This document shows positions 1-5,376 of a stretch of 5,691 nt of DNA, piece by piece. The notes below the pieces were generated by a model. That model made no database searches, was not told the DNA's origin, and saw only the letters and a program-made list of their open reading frames with translations. Each line of letters opens with the position of its first letter. Position 1 is the stretch's first letter. The stretch comes from Chloroflexota bacterium (GTDB taxonomy: Bacteria > Chloroflexota > Anaerolineae > Ardenticatenales > Ardenticatenaceae), in contig DOUV01000429.1 of the NCBI GenBank assembly GCA_003520455.1, positions 1 to 5,691 on the forward strand, in the 5' to 3' direction. The position numbers and the translations under genes were made by a program.

Positions 1-1364
1 AGCCCGCCGAACCAGAGCGGCAGCGCCATCGCCGCGAGGGCGACCGCCGGGCGCCAGAAAAGGCCGAGCCAGGGGATGTGGCCGACGTGGGTGCGCAGCA
101 GCGCGTAGAAGGGCAGAAGCAGAACGATCTCGCTCATGATCGTCGTGGCGGCGGCGCCGTAGAAGCTGAAGCGCGGGATCAAGAGCAGGTTGGCGGTGAG
201 GTTGAAGAGCACGCCGCTGATGAAGGCGCGGGTGAGCGCGCGCTGCTGGTTGACGGCGATCAGGACGTAGTGGACCAGGCTGTTGATGAAGCTGAACGGC
301 AGGAACCAGATCAGGATTTGGAGCGCCAGGGTCGAGCCGTGGTCGGCGAACTCGTGCCCGCCGAAGGCCAGGATGATCGGCTCGGCGTAGCGGGTGGTGA
401 GCAGGGCCAGCGGGAGGGCGCACAGGATCAGCCACTTCAGCGCGAGCACGGTGACCCGCAGGAGCGGCGAGTCGCCCGTCCCCGTGCCGTGCGCACTCGC
501 AGCGTAGCGAGACATCACCGGGAAGATGGCCAGGGTGAAGGTTGAGGGGATGATGTTGAGCCCGTCGATGAACTTGTAGGGGATGTCGTAGAGCCCCACC
601 GCGCGCACGCCCTGCACCGGCTGGAGGATGAGCTTGTCCAACCGGAAGAAGGCGATCGAGAGGAAGTCGTTCAGCATCAGCGGGAAGGCGGTCCCCAGGA
701 GGCTGCGGCTCCACCGGCGGTCCCAACGCCAGGCTCGCAGGCGGTGCGATGCCCTTCCGAAGGGCATGGCACCTGTGTGCACGAGCAACACTGTCAACAG
801 TGCCAGCGTCGCCAGGTTGGTCACGACGCTCGTCGCGGCCAGCCCGACGATCCCGAAGCCGGCGATGAGGACCCCGGCACCGGCGCTCACCTTGATGAAG
901 GTGCTGAGGGTCGAGATCAGCGCTGGGATCTCGAACTTCTCGTAGGCTCGGAAGACGGCGGTCATGGCATCGGCCAGGGTGCTCGGGATCAGGCCCACGG
1001 CCAGCAGCACGATGGCCCAACTCGTGGTTCGGTCCAGCCCGAAGAGCGTTTCCCACACCAAGATCACCAGGACGAGCACCGGCGTGGCGAGGGCGAGGAG
1101 CACCAGCCGCAGCGCGACGGTATTGGCCAGATAGCGCCCGGCCGCCGTGCGGTCTCGTGCCACCTCGCGGGTCAGCAGGGTCCCCAGGCCGAAGGTGGTG
1201 AAGATGATGAAATACCAGATGATGCTGATAGCGAAGGCGTAGGCACCGAGGCCGGCGGGGCCGAGGATACGGGCCATGAAGGCGGCGAAGACGGTATCCA
1301 CCGCCTTGTTGAGCAGGGCGAGCGCCATCGGGGCCAGGGAGTTTTTGGCGACCCGGCGGACCTC
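1..1364 (-). other. MOP-superfamily oligosaccharide flippase domain of the fusion protein, residues 938 to beyond 1391
   Basis: The domain starts directly after a charged linker (about 927-944) that follows the last YfhO helix. VAKNSLAPMALALLNKAV and the following ARILGPAGLGAYAFAI are the typical N-terminal helix and loop of bacterial polysaccharide flippases. Further family hallmarks are FRAYEKFEIPAL (1075-1086), FRLDKLILQ (1177-1185), VGLYDIPYKF (1193-1202), IFPVMSRYA, and AEPIILAFGGHEF (1264-1276) before the C-terminal polysaccharide-biosynthesis helices. Alternating hydrophobic stretches fit a 12-14 helix transporter. About 454 residues are visible; the last one or two helices are probably beyond the left edge. 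Known family role: moving undecaprenyl-linked saccharides from the inner to the outer leaflet. Whether this one handles a monosaccharide or an oligosaccharide carrier cannot be told from sequence. Confidence 0.88.
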
Positions 1365-4175
1365 ATGCTCGCCGGGCTGCTCCTGGTAGATGCGGCCCCA
1401 GGCCCAGAAGGCGGCGCCGAGCAGCAGCAGCGCGAGGCCCAGGAAGCTCGCGAAGAAGCCGATCTTGACCGAGTCGGGCGTGTACTTGAAGCGCACCAGC
1501 CACTCGCCGGCCGGTAGGGGAACCGCACGAAAGGCGCCGTCCGCACGGTAGATCGGCAGCTCACGCTCCGTATCCCCGCCCCCTTCCACGGGGCGGGCAG
1601 GGAGGGAGGCGCGGGGGCGAATGAAGGCCTTCCACCCCGGGAACCAGGTGTCGCTGAGGACCAGCCAGGCCGGTGCCTCCACGGCCACCTGCGCCTCGAT
1701 CTCATTGCCACTGGACCGTGTGATCCGCGCCGCGGTGAAGGGCTGCTCGCTATCGACAAGCGGGACGGTCTCGGCCCGCGGCCCGGTTTCTGAATCGATC
1801 AACACCTCACGGCGTGGATCGAGCGAGCGTAACTCGCCCAGGACCGCAGCGTGGTCGAGAAGGCGCACGCTGCCCAGCGCGAAGGCGCGTGGGAGTGAGT
1901 TCTGGTTCTCGTAGATCTTGACCTCGCCGTCGTAGACCTTCGTCCAACCGGGCCGGTCGAGGTCGAACACCGTCGCAACGAAGCGCACGCCGAGCAAGTC
2001 GAGCAACGCCGAATCCAGCGAGCCGTTCCAGAAGAGCGGGCCGATGCGATTCTGCAACAGGCTCCCACGCTGCTCCTCGATAGCGCTAACGAACTCGGTG
2101 TAGTGCTTGGGGATGATCGAGTCGTAGCCGCGCACGTCCTCCAGACCGTAGAACGTGCCGCTGTTGGCGTTGAGGATCTTGCTCTGCGGTACGCCCAGGG
2201 TGCCATCCGAGTCGAGGGTCGTGAAGCGCCAGGGCTGTCCGCCGCGCTGGCTGAGGAGAAACTCGAGGGCCGGGGGTGTGAAGGTCGCCAGGCGGGTCGT
2301 CGTGACCGGCATGAAGCCGGCCGCGGCGACGGCAAGGTCGAGACCGGCAACGAGCAGGGCCAGTCGTTGCCAGGCGGGCCGGAGTCCCGTGATGCGTGAT
2401 GGGCGATGGGCGAGACGCGGTGCTGAGTGAGTCTCCCCGTCGCCTTGTTCTTGTGTCTCCCTCGCTCTTCTGGCTGCGAGGTGGAAGACAGCACCGGCGC
2501 CGAGCAGCGCCAGGCCGAGCCGGAGGAAGTTCTGCCACTGGTAGCTGACCAGCAGCGCGGCGTTCTCTCCGAAGCTCAGCCGCGTCAGCTCCGAGCGGGC
2601 CATCAGGGCGGTGGCGACGCGCAGGAAGGGGGCCGGGAGCAGGAAGACGACCAGGAGGCCGAGGAGGAGAGCGCTGCCCGCACCGAGCAGGAGCCGGCGC
2701 AGGAGAGTCCCACCACCGGAGGCTGCCAACTCGTCCAGGCCGGTCGCCGCGAGGGTCGCCACCGCCAGCGAGAGGGGGAAGACCCAGCGGAAGGGAGTGT
2801 GAAGCTGGTTCCAGCCCGGGAGCGCGTAGAAGAGCAGGGCATAGGCCGGCGTGCCGAAGATGAAGAGCAGGCTCGCTGCGCTCAGCCCGCCGAAGAACCG
2901 GACCATGCCGTCGCGCCAGCGGCGGACCAGCGCCAGCGTGGCCAGGGCCAGTGGCAAGATGCCGAGGTACCCGCTTGCCTCGACGTAATTTTTGTAGCTG
3001 GGCAGGCCTTTCGTCCAGGCGACATAATCCAGGGGGGCCGGCGCGCCCTGGGTGGGGGTCAGGGTGCGGATGGGCTCCCAGCTCTTTGTGACCAGGTTGA
3101 AGAACTCGTGGCGCGCCGGGTTGCCCCAGAAGTCGGGCACCAGGAAGCTTGTGATCTGGCGGATCGGCCAGGCCCAGCCCAGCACCTCGCGCAGGCTGAC
3201 CGAGCCCTCACGAAAGTTGTAGCGGACCAGTTCGAAGAGTGGCACCATCTGCGCCGCGCCCAGCAAGAGCCCGACGGACGCCAGCGCCAGCCCCCAGAGG
3301 GCAAACAAGCCTTTCGACTTTGGATCTTGGATCTTGGCTTGAGGAAATGGACCCCGAGAATCCGAAGATCCGAAATCTGAAACCAGGAGCCAGAGGCCCC
3401 AGAGCGCGCTCACCAGCAGGACGTAGTAGGCAACCTCGACGTGGCCGGCCAGGAAGACGACTCCGAGGCCAAGGGCACCGAGGCTGACCCAGGGGATGTA
3501 GGCGGTAGGGTGGCGCTCGCCCGCGGCGGCTTTTTGCGCCAACCGGGCGATCATCGCCAGGATGAAGGGCAGCCACGCCGCGCCGGCGATGATCATGGGG
3601 AAGACCACGCTCACGGTCAGGAAGCCGCTGCCCTGGAAGACGAGCCCACCGAGCAGACTCGCCATCCTGCTGCGACCCAGGACTCGCAGCAGGATGTATA
3701 GGCTCAACCCGGCCCAGGCCAGGGTCAGGACGGTGAACCAGCCGTAGGCCTGTGGGATCGGGAGCAGCAGGAAGAGGAGCGAGAGCGGGTAGAGGGCCGA
3801 GTGCTGGCCCGCCGCCAGAAAGGGCTGCCCCGCGAACTGGTGGGGGTTCCAGAGCGGCAGCTCGCCGTGGCTCAGGCGGTCGCGGATGAAGAGCTTCCAG
3901 GCGTAGTTTTCGAGCAGCAGGTCGCTGACCAGCTCGTTGTGGGGGGCACCCACGCCCACTTGATCGCGGAAGGCCGACCAGGGCAGGAACTGGTAGAGGT
4001 TGTCGAATGGGATGAGCGTGTGACCCGGCAGGAGCGTCGGCCAGAAGAGCAGCAGAGGGAGTATCAGAAACAAGAGAGCCGGGGCACTCGCGCGGAGCAC
4101 CTGCTGCAGGCGGGCAGTCAACTCGATGGGTGAGTCATTGACTTCAACCGTTTCTTGAACACGGATGGCCGTCAT
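1..4175 (-). CDS. YfhO-type GT-C membrane protein fused to MOP/Wzx-type flippase (3' end outside window)
   Basis: A single frame runs from ATG at 4175-4173 to the window edge: 1391 full codons with no stop, read directly on the minus strand. The frame is closed upstream by TGA at 4211-4209. Residues 1 to about 930 are a YfhO-family polytopic protein; residues from about 938 are a polysaccharide-type flippase. The C-terminus is cut by the window. No stop, restart or ribosome-binding site separates the halves. The first ATG lies 26 nt after the DUF2283 stop. No Shine-Dalgarno precedes it (the upstream bases are pyrimidine-rich), so coupling to upstream translation is likely. YfhO proteins are multi-membrane-span GT-C glycosyltransferases acting outside the membrane; MOP flippases export lipid-linked sugars. 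The inferred joint role is to flip a lipid-linked sugar and transfer it to an envelope acceptor. Acceptor and sugar are unknown. Reading frame near certain; family calls strong; joint function inferred. Confidence 0.93.
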   Translation of the reverse strand, partial: MTAIRVQETVEVNDSPIELTARLQQVLRASAPALLFLILPLLLFWPTLLPGHTLIPFDNLYQFLPWSAFRDQVGVGAPHNELVSDLLLENYAWKLFIRDRLSHGELPLWNPHQFAGQPFLAAGQHSALYPLSLLFLLLPIPQAYGWFTVLTLAWAGLSLYILLRVLGRSRMASLLGGLVFQGSGFLTVSVVFPMIIAGAAWLPFILAMIARLAQKAAAGERHPTAYIPWVSLGALGLGVVFLAGHVEVAYYVLLVSALWGLWLLVSDFGSSDSRGPFPQAKIQDPKSKGLFALWGLALASVGLLLGAAQMVPLFELVRYNFREGSVSLREVLGWAWPIRQITSFLVPDFWGNPARHEFFNLVTKSWEPIRTLTPTQGAPAPLDYVAWTKGLPSYKNYVEASGYLGILPLALATLALVRRWRDGMVRFFGGLSAASLLFIFGTPAYALLFYALPGWNQLHTPFRWVFPLSLAVATLAATGLDELAASGGGTLLRRLLLGAGSALLLGLLVVFLLPAPFLRVATALMARSELTRLSFGENAALLVSYQWQNFLRLGLALLGAGAVFHLAARRARETQEQGDGETHSAPRLAHRPSRITGLRPAWQRLALLVAGLDLAVAAAGFMPVTTTRLATFTPPALEFLLSQRGGQPWRFTTLDSDGTLGVPQSKILNANSGTFYGLEDVRGYDSIIPKHYTEFVSAIEEQRGSLLQNRIGPLFWNGSLDSALLDLLGVRFVATVFDLDRPGWTKVYDGEVKIYENQNSLPRAFALGSVRLLDHAAVLGELRSLDPRREVLIDSETGPRAETVPLVDSEQPFTAARITRSSGNEIEAQVAVEAPAWLVLSDTWFPGWKAFIRPRASLPARPVEGGGDTERELPIYRADGAFRAVPLPAGEWLVRFKYTPDSVKIGFFASFLGLALLLLGAAFWAWGRIYQEQPGEHEVRRVAKNSLAPMALALLNKAVDTVFAAFMARILGPAGLGAYAFAISIIWYFIIFTTFGLGTLLTREVARDRTAAGRYLANTVALRLVLLALATPVLVLVILVWETLFGLDRTTSWAIVLLAVGLIPSTLADAMTAVFRAYEKFEIPALISTLSTFIKVSAGAGVLIAGFGIVGLAATSVVTNLATLALLTVLLVHTGAMPFGRASHRLRAWRWDRRWSRSLLGTAFPLMLNDFLSIAFFRLDKLILQPVQGVRAVGLYDIPYKFIDGLNIIPSTFTLAIFPVMSRYAASAHGTGTGDSPLLRVTVLALKWLILCALPLALLTTRYAEPIILAFGGHEFADHGSTLALQILIWFLPFSFINSLVHYVLIAVNQQRALTRAFISGVLFNLTANLLLIPRFSFYGAAATTIMSEIVLLLPFYALLRTHVGHIPWLGLFWRPAVALAAMALPLWFGG
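2388..2462. repeat. Degenerate 7-bp and 8-bp tandem repeats inside the YfhO coding region
   Basis: On the plus strand six heptamers follow one another: cgtgatg, cgtgatg, ggcgatg, ggcgaga, cgcggtg, ctgagtg (2388-2429). Four rough octamers beginning with GT come next (2431-2462), with the outer copies GTCTCCCC and GTCTCCCT nearly identical. On the coding strand they are translated as a hydrophilic stretch (about residues 572-597, starting ETQEQGDGETHSAP) between two membrane segments. It resembles spacer DNA more than family-conserved protein. Confidence 0.5.
3312..3382. repeat. Imperfect inverted repeat of heptamer-like units inside the YfhO coding region
   Basis: The left arm (3312-3337) contains ggatctt twice in tandem (3322-3335). 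The right arm (3354-3382) contains repeated atccga units and mirrors the left, with a perfect core GGATCTT (3322-3328) / AAGATCC (3365-3371). By my count the arms are about 42-45% GC, below the surrounding gene. It is translated in frame as a polar loop (about residues 265-289, including SDFGSSDSRG and QAKIQDPKSK) between two hydrophobic segments, so the reading frame has tolerated it. Confidence 0.6.
3663..3696. repeat. Perfect 13-bp inverted repeat within the large gene
   Basis: CATCCTGCTGCGA (3663-3675) and TCGCAGCAGGATG (3684-3696) are exact reverse complements separated by 8 nt. The transcript can form a strong hairpin here. It encodes part of a membrane helix and the following loop (YILLRVLGRSRM). 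There is no T-run on either side, so it is not a standard terminator. Confidence 0.6.
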
Positions 4176-4201: not shown

Positions 4202-4441
4202 TTATTGCTCAGCTGTGGGGTGCAGGGCTACAGTGACAGGAAGCTCGAAAAGATCACTCCGCACGCGGCGGGTTGAGAAAAACAGTCCTCCCAGGTTCTC
4301 AAACTCGCCCCTGGCCCGGTGAAGCCGGGCGATCACCTCATCGCCGACCTCCCCGGTTGCCTGCCCTGGATACGGAGGGCGTGTGTTGACGTGGAGAGTA
4401 TCAGCCTCACGATCGTATTTGAAGGTTCGGGACGTTCCCAT
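4202..4441 (-). CDS. Small DUF2283-family protein
   Basis: The product is 79 aa with no membrane segment or signal peptide. The N-terminal FKYDREADTLHV (residues 7-18) is the recognisable DUF2283 start. It is followed by GEVGDEVIARLHRARGEFEN, matching the family's acidic beta-strand, GD-turn and RLD/RLH pattern. The final third (STRRVRSDLFELPVTVALHP) is less typical but keeps a short hydrophobic strand. The start is well fixed by GAGGAG at 4454-4449, 7 nt before the ATG. The gene lies 155 bp after the GT2 gene and 26 nt before the YfhO-flippase ATG, so it is probably co-transcribed. DUF2283 has no established biochemical role; from memory, members often pair with DUF4258 proteins in a toxin-antitoxin-like arrangement, but no such partner is visible here. 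A regulatory or accessory role in the cluster would be a guess. Confidence 0.85.
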   Translation of the reverse strand: MGTSRTFKYDREADTLHVNTRPPYPGQATGEVGDEVIARLHRARGEFENLGGLFFSTRRVRSDLFELPVTVALHPTAEQ

Positions 4442-4596: not shown

Positions 4597-5376
4597 TCAG
4601 AACTTGGCCAGCGATGCGGCCGTGGGCTCCACTTTCGGCACCGTGCGGGCGACGGCGTTGCGATGGCGCCACCGGATTTGCCAGACCCGCCAGGCAGCCT
4701 CGAGTTTGACGGGCACCGTCATCTTGCTCTTGCCGATCCGGCGATCCTCGAAGTAGATCGGAATCTCGAGAACCCGAAAGCCCAGTTTCTCGGTCAAGTA
4801 AGCCATCTCCACCTGGAAGACGTAGCCATTGGAACGCACCTGGTCGAGGTCGATCGCATCCAGCGTCGCCCGGCGCCAGGCCTTAAAGCCGGCAGTCGCG
4901 TCTCGCGTGCGAATGTTCAGTACCGCGCGCGAATAGACCTGGTTCGCCCACCAGCTCAGAAAGTAGCGCCACCAACTCCAACGTTCGTCCAGCTCACCGC
5001 CCGGCACGTAGCGGCTGCCGACCACGACATCGGCCTGGTCGGTGCGGAGCGCCTCGACCATAGCGGGGATGTAGCGCGGCGAGTGGGAGAAATCGGCATC
5101 CATCTGGACGACGACCTCGGCTCCCTGGGCCAACGCGCGGCGGAAGCCGGTGTTGTAGGCGGTCCCGAGGCCAAGCTTGCCGGTCCGGTGCACCACGTCG
5201 ATTCGTCCGGCGTGGATCGCGGCCAGGCGATCGGCGATTTCGCCGGTGCCATCGGGGGAACCGTCATCCACGATGATGAGCGTGAGGGTCCTGCGGGGAA
5301 GGGTAAAGAGTGCGTCTACCATCGCCGCCAAGTTCTCAGCTTCATTGTAGGTTGGGATGACGACGGTTGTTTGCAT
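4597..5376 (-). CDS. GT2 polyprenyl-phosphate sugar synthase, Dol-P-Man synthase (DPM1)-like
   Basis: The product is 259 aa. It is predicted to transfer a sugar from a nucleotide donor (GDP-mannose in classical DPM1) to a polyprenyl phosphate on the cytoplasmic face, giving a lipid-phosphate-sugar. Visible GT2 motifs: [11 protein letters not shown] (5-15) at the nucleotide site; VDDGSPDGT (36-44); [10 protein letters not shown] (69-78); the metal-binding DAD of [10 protein letters not shown] (91-100); [11 protein letters not shown] (117-127); [12 protein letters not shown] (158-169); [10 protein letters not shown] (182-191); and [15 protein letters not shown] (205-219), typical of DPM1. The protein ends about 40 residues later with no C-terminal transmembrane helices, so it belongs to the short soluble class. 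The ATG is chosen because the first GT2 strand begins at residue 4; only a weak GAAAG precedes it. The family is sure; the sugar could be mannose, glucose or GlcNAc. Confidence 0.95.

Follow-up and report, generated by a model that had tools for sequence, protein, structure and literature searches.

A YfhO-type GT-C transferase and a Wzx/MurJ-like flippase joined in one open reading frame in Chloroflexota

A contig of a Chloroflexota bacterium of the Ardenticatenaceae (GenBank assembly GCA_003520455.1, contig DOUV01000429.1; the whole stretch of 5,691 nucleotides is called the window here) carries on its minus strand a family 2 glycosyltransferase (GT2) gene (5376-4597), a frame of 79 amino acids (a.a.) (4441-4202) and then a long frame, in which a YfhO-type GT-C transferase and a MOP-superfamily flippase are joined by an eight-residue linker. 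Our analysis confirmed that this single frame is real and excluded an artefact. We consider it fairly probable that the fusion and the GT2 constitute a two-gene transmembrane glycosylation system, in which the GT2 would load the lipid, the MOP domain would flip it and the fused GT-C domain would transfer the sugar on the outside.

The long frame runs from the ATG at 4175 to the window edge at position 3, and comprises at least 1391 codons without a single stop, as the initial annotation, made from the sequence alone, had described. The C-terminus lies beyond the edge, so that the codon count is a minimum value, and the true start may differ from ATG 4175, since about the first 30 residues are poorly conserved. 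A Pfam search recovered YfhO (PF09586) at residues 126-232, with 33.8 bits against the curated cut-off of 28.5, although the match spans only positions 74-177 of the 835-position profile, followed by Polysacc_synt (PF01943) at residues 943-1224 (78.5 bits; cut-off 28.2) and MatE at residues 1165-1329, which is the order of families predicted beforehand. No NCBIfam model reached its cut-off on the fusion. The parts of the frame, delimited with the help of AlphaFold2 models, are as follows.

Positions 1389 to 4175, minus strand: YfhO-type GT-C transferase half, residues 1-929 (Pfam and AlphaFold2 model), with about 14 transmembrane segments predicted roughly from hydropathy, then an extracytoplasmic mixed region and a last helix (residues 901-929).
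Positions 1479 to 2300, minus strand: soluble part of the GT-C half (residues ~626-899), presumed to lie outside the cytoplasm, with a beta-sandwich inside it (residues ~763-899).
Positions 1365 to 1388, minus strand: linker YQEQPGEH, residues 930-937 (helix ends in the AlphaFold2 models).
Positions 3 to 1364, minus strand: MOP-superfamily (Wzx/MurJ-like) flippase half, residues 938-1391, cut at the window edge.

The models were built from 69-row alignments in two overlapping pieces, residues 1-941 and 896-1391 (residue n of the second model is protein residue n+895), with predicted local distance difference test (pLDDT) scores of 89.2 and 90.3, respectively. The YfhO half closes with a helix that reaches residue 929, and the flippase half opens with one that covers residues 938-994, in agreement with the earlier placement of YfhO features up to about residue 930 and flippase features from about 938. 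The short linker proposed before thus stands, with an extent (window 1388-1365) slightly tighter than the 1397-1344 given at that time; model confidence is lower here than in the flanking helices, falling to 77 and 60 in the final blocks of the 1-941 model. The internal ATG at 1328-1326 corresponds to residue 950 and lies inside the first flippase helix, as had been claimed. Third-position GC is 0.90-1.0 around the junction versus 0.83-0.96 in other long stretches.

The modelled N-terminal half adopts a predicted GT-C transmembrane fold resembling the GT-C enzymes AftD, OST, PglB and ArnT, at 9-15% identity; we know of no fusion of any of these to a flippase. The flippase-half model resembles WzxE (9g9p, 17% identity) and MurJ (6nc6, 12% identity), and the profile match together with this predicted fold assigns it to the Wzx/MurJ-type MOP superfamily. 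WzxE and MurJ, the latter with a pyrophosphate-linked substrate, are stand-alone chains, whereas the flippase half here is fused. A rough hydropathy sketch gave 14 hydrophobic segments in the first half; since this number is even, both ends of the GT-C half would be cytoplasmic and the flippase would be able to begin there. Within the GT-C half, D58 is present in 80 of 83 fused proteins and D85 in all 83; both come after the first predicted helix and may be candidates for the acidic catalytic residue expected in the first external loop of a GT-C enzyme. R969 and R1003 are among the invariant residues of the flippase half. Across the junction, the spacing from W926 to N945 is 19-22 residues in 78/83 fused proteins. 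As a separate observation, the GT-C half contains two in-frame inserts (window 3383-3309 and 2471-2382, minus strand; residues ~265-289 and ~569-598), which are missing or shorter in the closest relatives. Their third-position GC is low (0.44 for residues 268-292 and 0.61 for 570-602 versus 0.83-0.86 in the GT-C half), the model confidence dips at both, and by eye they look like captured intergenic-type repeat DNA, with similar segments in the homologues P0081, P0093 and P0109.

The fused form is common in the phylum. A homologue search found 1661 proteins; the 120 matches listed were 1311-1474 a.a. long, and their alignments covered 68-100% of the query. Leaving aside the entry of the window itself, their identity to the query was 42-82%; among those with a source name, the closest was an Ardenticatenaceae protein (P0003) at 72%. 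In a scan of genome contigs, which found 365 relatives, our locus counts rest on 80. All of these 80 loci carry titles of Chloroflexota taxa, and in every one the YfhO and flippase halves share one open frame, so that the search for further proteins with both domains returned the joined form and not two genes split at the junction. Among 400 evenly sampled Chloroflexota genomes, the fusion is present in at least 42 by our count from the listed rows, a lower bound because two candidates were scored per genome at a cut-off of 1e-100. In 24 genomes chosen from the fusion loci, the matches listed include one fused copy per genome, alongside stand-alone YfhO-like and flippase-like matches. The view that the two families are normally separate proteins must be qualified accordingly: the fusion is common in Chloroflexota, and separate paralogues coexist with it in these genomes. 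In the genomes of loci L018 and L023 (G010 and G011), the fusion profile gave 23 matches each, many of them stand-alone YfhO-like proteins, and a single fusion.

Because many stand-alone flippase matches began near the last YfhO helix, some of them crossing a stop codon, we suspected that a YfhO gene might lie just upstream of such flippases. This idea was rejected for the regions fetched. Among 40 flippase regions that we chose from the 400-genome survey, two were fused (L112 and L117), one of the other 38 was a reduced fusion (L081), and a YfhO gene adjoined the flippase in 0/38 stand-alone flippase loci; in L082, a YfhO-like frame lies ~5.7 kb from the flippase on the opposite strand. Conversely, no flippase match was found near the 22 stand-alone YfhO frames of 20 regions, also chosen by us, from the matches in the 24 genomes. 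The fused form in the relatives and the lack of adjacent separate pairs indicate that the fusion is not a mis-joined common gene pair. That the window is a single short contig of 5691 bases could speak for an assembly or frameshift error joining neighbouring genes, but we give such an error a negligible chance in view of the shared frame in all 80 loci, the sampled genomes and the missing separate pairs.

We next consider the genes upstream of the fusion in the window.

Positions 4597 to 5376, minus strand: GT2 gene, 259 a.a., similar to dolichol monophosphate mannose (DPM) synthase, proposed to make a polyprenyl-phosphate sugar (PF00535, 120 bits).
Positions 4202 to 4441, minus strand: open frame of 79 a.a. 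between the GT2 and the fusion, outside the conserved pair (sub-threshold match to DUF2283, 17.1 bits against 23).

The best solved relative of the GT2 is the Pyrococcus furiosus DPM synthase (5mlz; E 1.9e-30, residues 1-233). None of the NCBIfam GT2 models passed its threshold; PpgS came highest, with 75.2 bits against 370. A GT2 lies directly upstream on the same strand in 51 of the 71 fusion loci whose upstream sequence extends for 800 bases or more, mostly overlapping the fusion or within a few tens of bases, although frames taken from the first start codon may overstate the overlaps. Elsewhere in the ~1.01 Mb of DNA flanking the fusion loci, there was only one further GT2 match. The same arrangement occurred in 1/36 stand-alone flippase loci with room (L085) and in 1/21 stand-alone YfhO loci (L138), in a comparison that counts loci as independent despite kinship and uses controls picked by us. 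The 79-a.a. frame had no phmmer match in the 80 fusion loci. The length of certain upstream GT2 frames, which reach 376 a.a., led us to suspect a GtrA domain fused to the GT2; this was rejected for the proteins checked, since Pfam found only GT2 domains and no GtrA in nine GT2 proteins of fusion loci and in that of L085. In L085 itself (6268-8857, plus strand), the GT2 frame overlaps a stand-alone flippase that groups beside the main fused clade, possibly an intermediate arrangement.

Unrooted trees were clearer for the YfhO half than for the flippase half. A quickly calculated YfhO tree separates the 83 fused halves from the 22 stand-alone YfhO proteins of the 20 chosen regions by a branch with a Shimodaira-Hasegawa-like approximate likelihood ratio test (SH-aLRT) value of 99. 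The flippase-half tree, from 83 fused and 38 stand-alone rows, leaves L112 as the one fusion outside the fused group; it requires two changes, both of them forced by starred branches, and long branches meet in it. A second flippase tree was calculated under a mixture model with the kin of L112 added, from 23 of the 83 fused rows, 24 further proteins and 37 of the 38 stand-alone rows (L113 was dropped for its long branch). The L112 group again lay outside the main fused clade, with two changes needed and one forced by the starred branches. These trees do not demonstrate a single origin of the flippase half. The L112 fusion (4380-8321, plus strand) has its YfhO half among the fused ones and its flippase half outside the main fused clade; it and its kin may stem from a second fusion event or from an exchanged flippase half, or the trees may misplace them. 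Further upstream of L112 are two weak GT2 matches (26 and 59 bits), with an intervening frame that resembles a membrane glycosyltransferase by eye.

A reduced form of the fusion was also observed. The L081 protein (6930-9584, plus strand) keeps the GT-C start, the last helix, the linker and the flippase, and by eye lacks the GT-C middle. PF09586 had no match in 33 shorter relatives of L081 (P0237-P0269), of which the longer ones have ~720-978 a.a., some are partial and one is named Chloroflexia. These proteins look like fusions with a decayed transferase, a direction of change that is inferred, the trees being unrooted.

How the fusion compares with characterized glycosylation systems bears on its possible function. 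According to the available portions of the papers cited here, the CsbB-GtcA-YfhO systems of Bacillus subtilis, Staphylococcus aureus and Listeria employ a GT-A enzyme for the synthesis of a C55-P-sugar, a flippase for its movement and a YfhO-type GT-C for the transfer of the sugar (PMC8035078). The GT2 and the fusion would follow the same reaction logic, and a candidate GT-A maker of the lipid-P-sugar is encoded with the fusion in most loci. In contrast, the known systems divide the work among three proteins, one of them a small GtrA-type flippase, whereas in Chloroflexota a MOP flippase and the YfhO half form one chain in 80/80 loci, and no GtrA-type gene, which is usual but not universal in three-component systems, was found at the fusion loci of the 24 genomes. 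The fusion and GT2 would therefore be a variant that works like a three-component system, not a standard member.

Two further systems offer partial parallels. The GacK-GacL system of Streptococcus pyogenes also includes GacI and GacJ. In it, the Wzx-type flippase GacK is proposed to work with the GT-C GacL (PMC8035078), so that a Wzx-type flippase is paired with a GT-C as in the fusion, but the proteins are separate and GacL has a PMT-2 domain instead of YfhO. The ORF15-ORF14-ORF12 pentofuranose system (GT136) of Citrobacter youngae, with a lipid-P-sugar synthase, a flippase and a GT-C (PMC11127046), shares the three activities proposed for the GT2 and the fusion, and the available portions of that paper describe no fusion. 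We did not use its "MATE family" flippase as a MOP precedent, because it has four helices and is EmrE/ArnE-like (PMC11127046).

In the scheme that we infer, in which the catalysis, the sugar and the topology are all proposals, the GT2 would charge polyprenyl phosphate at the inner membrane face with a sugar taken from a nucleotide donor. The C-terminal MOP domain would move this lipid-P-sugar to the outer face, where the YfhO/GT-C domain at the N-terminus of the fusion would move the sugar from the lipid to an outside acceptor, which is probably a glycopolymer or protein of the cell surface. Through its last helix, the GT-C half would bring the chain back to the cytoplasm, and the eight-residue linker would keep the flippase beside the transferase, favouring local hand-over. 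Judging from the adjacent DPM-synthase-like GT2, the donor used outside the membrane by the GT-C half would be polyprenyl-phosphate-linked. Channelling of the flipped lipid-sugar to the transferase, suggested in the initial annotation, is plausible and gains support from the GT2 upstream. A pathway known from three separate proteins thus appears packed into two. A more specific version falls slightly short of an even chance in our estimate: one polypeptide would both flip and transfer, its Wzx/MurJ-type MOP domain passing the polyprenyl-monophosphate sugar directly to the fused GT-C site as a coupled machine across Chloroflexota, and the L081-type relatives would later have lost the GT-C middle, keeping the last helix with the flippase.

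Several points weigh against the two-gene proposal. A directly upstream GT2 is lacking in 20 of the 71 loci with room, and in the window the GT2 lies 421 bases from the fusion with the small frame between, a looser spacing than in most relatives. The L112 group has its flippase half outside the main fused clade. Of the 24 fusion genomes, 22 have GtrA-type genes (PF04138), which in 21 genomes lie on a contig other than that of the fusion and in one genome at a distance of 437 kb, so that another flippase could serve. Wzx flippases transport pyrophosphate-linked repeat units (PMC11127046). Furthermore, in the available portions of PMC7389260, lipoteichoic acid glycosylation in Listeria is independent of the Wzx homologue, and the GtrA protein GtcA is required in Listeria and B. 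subtilis, from which the Chloroflexota arrangement would depart.

Some of these points lead to the main rival, an unlikely but serious one, in which the halves share one assembly line and act on different substrates: the MOP domain would flip the acceptor, an oligosaccharide or glycopolymer unit linked through pyrophosphate, which YfhO would decorate with a donor sugar flipped by GtrA. The cargo of Wzx, the resemblance of the modelled flippase half to WzxE and MurJ as its nearest folds, and the GtrA genes in most fusion genomes would fit this. It is less easily reconciled with the gene neighbourhood, where no GtrA gene lies near the fusion in the 24 genomes and the sole recurrent fixed neighbour is the donor-making GT2, although the other neighbours were clustered without annotation and a polysaccharide locus is possible. 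The neighbourhood therefore favours the two-gene system, while the fold of the flippase half leans to the rival. It is also conceivable, at a distinctly lower probability, that the fusion merely tethers two independent proteins for co-expression or membrane placement, with no role of the linker in hand-over. The stand-alone YfhO-like and MOP-like paralogues in fusion-bearing genomes are consistent with such independence, but the nearly constant linker spacing and the supported branch that sets the fused YfhO halves apart argue against it.

In databases, the fusion goes by names including "oligosaccharide flippase family protein" or "O-antigen/teichoic acid export membrane protein", which hides the transferase half. 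We found no description of it in the open-access literature, the scope of our search excluding subscription papers and preprints, nor in the available portions of PMC8035078, PMC7389260, PMC7117936, PMC12826051, PMC11127046 and PMC4944223. The reaction scheme is already known; its realization in a fused protein with a Wzx/MurJ-type flippase has no description in the literature that we could search. By our reading, the identity of polyprenyl-monophosphate sugar flippases rests mostly on genetics and gene context, and PMC11127046 states that flippase activity had not been demonstrated directly for the proteins discussed there. A widespread MOP-GT-C fusion, usually beside a GT2, provides an argument from genomes for the ability of MOP flippases to flip polyprenyl-monophosphate sugars. 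Because the fused parts are present in a fixed 1:1 ratio, flipping and transfer could be measured together and uncoupled through changes in the linker.
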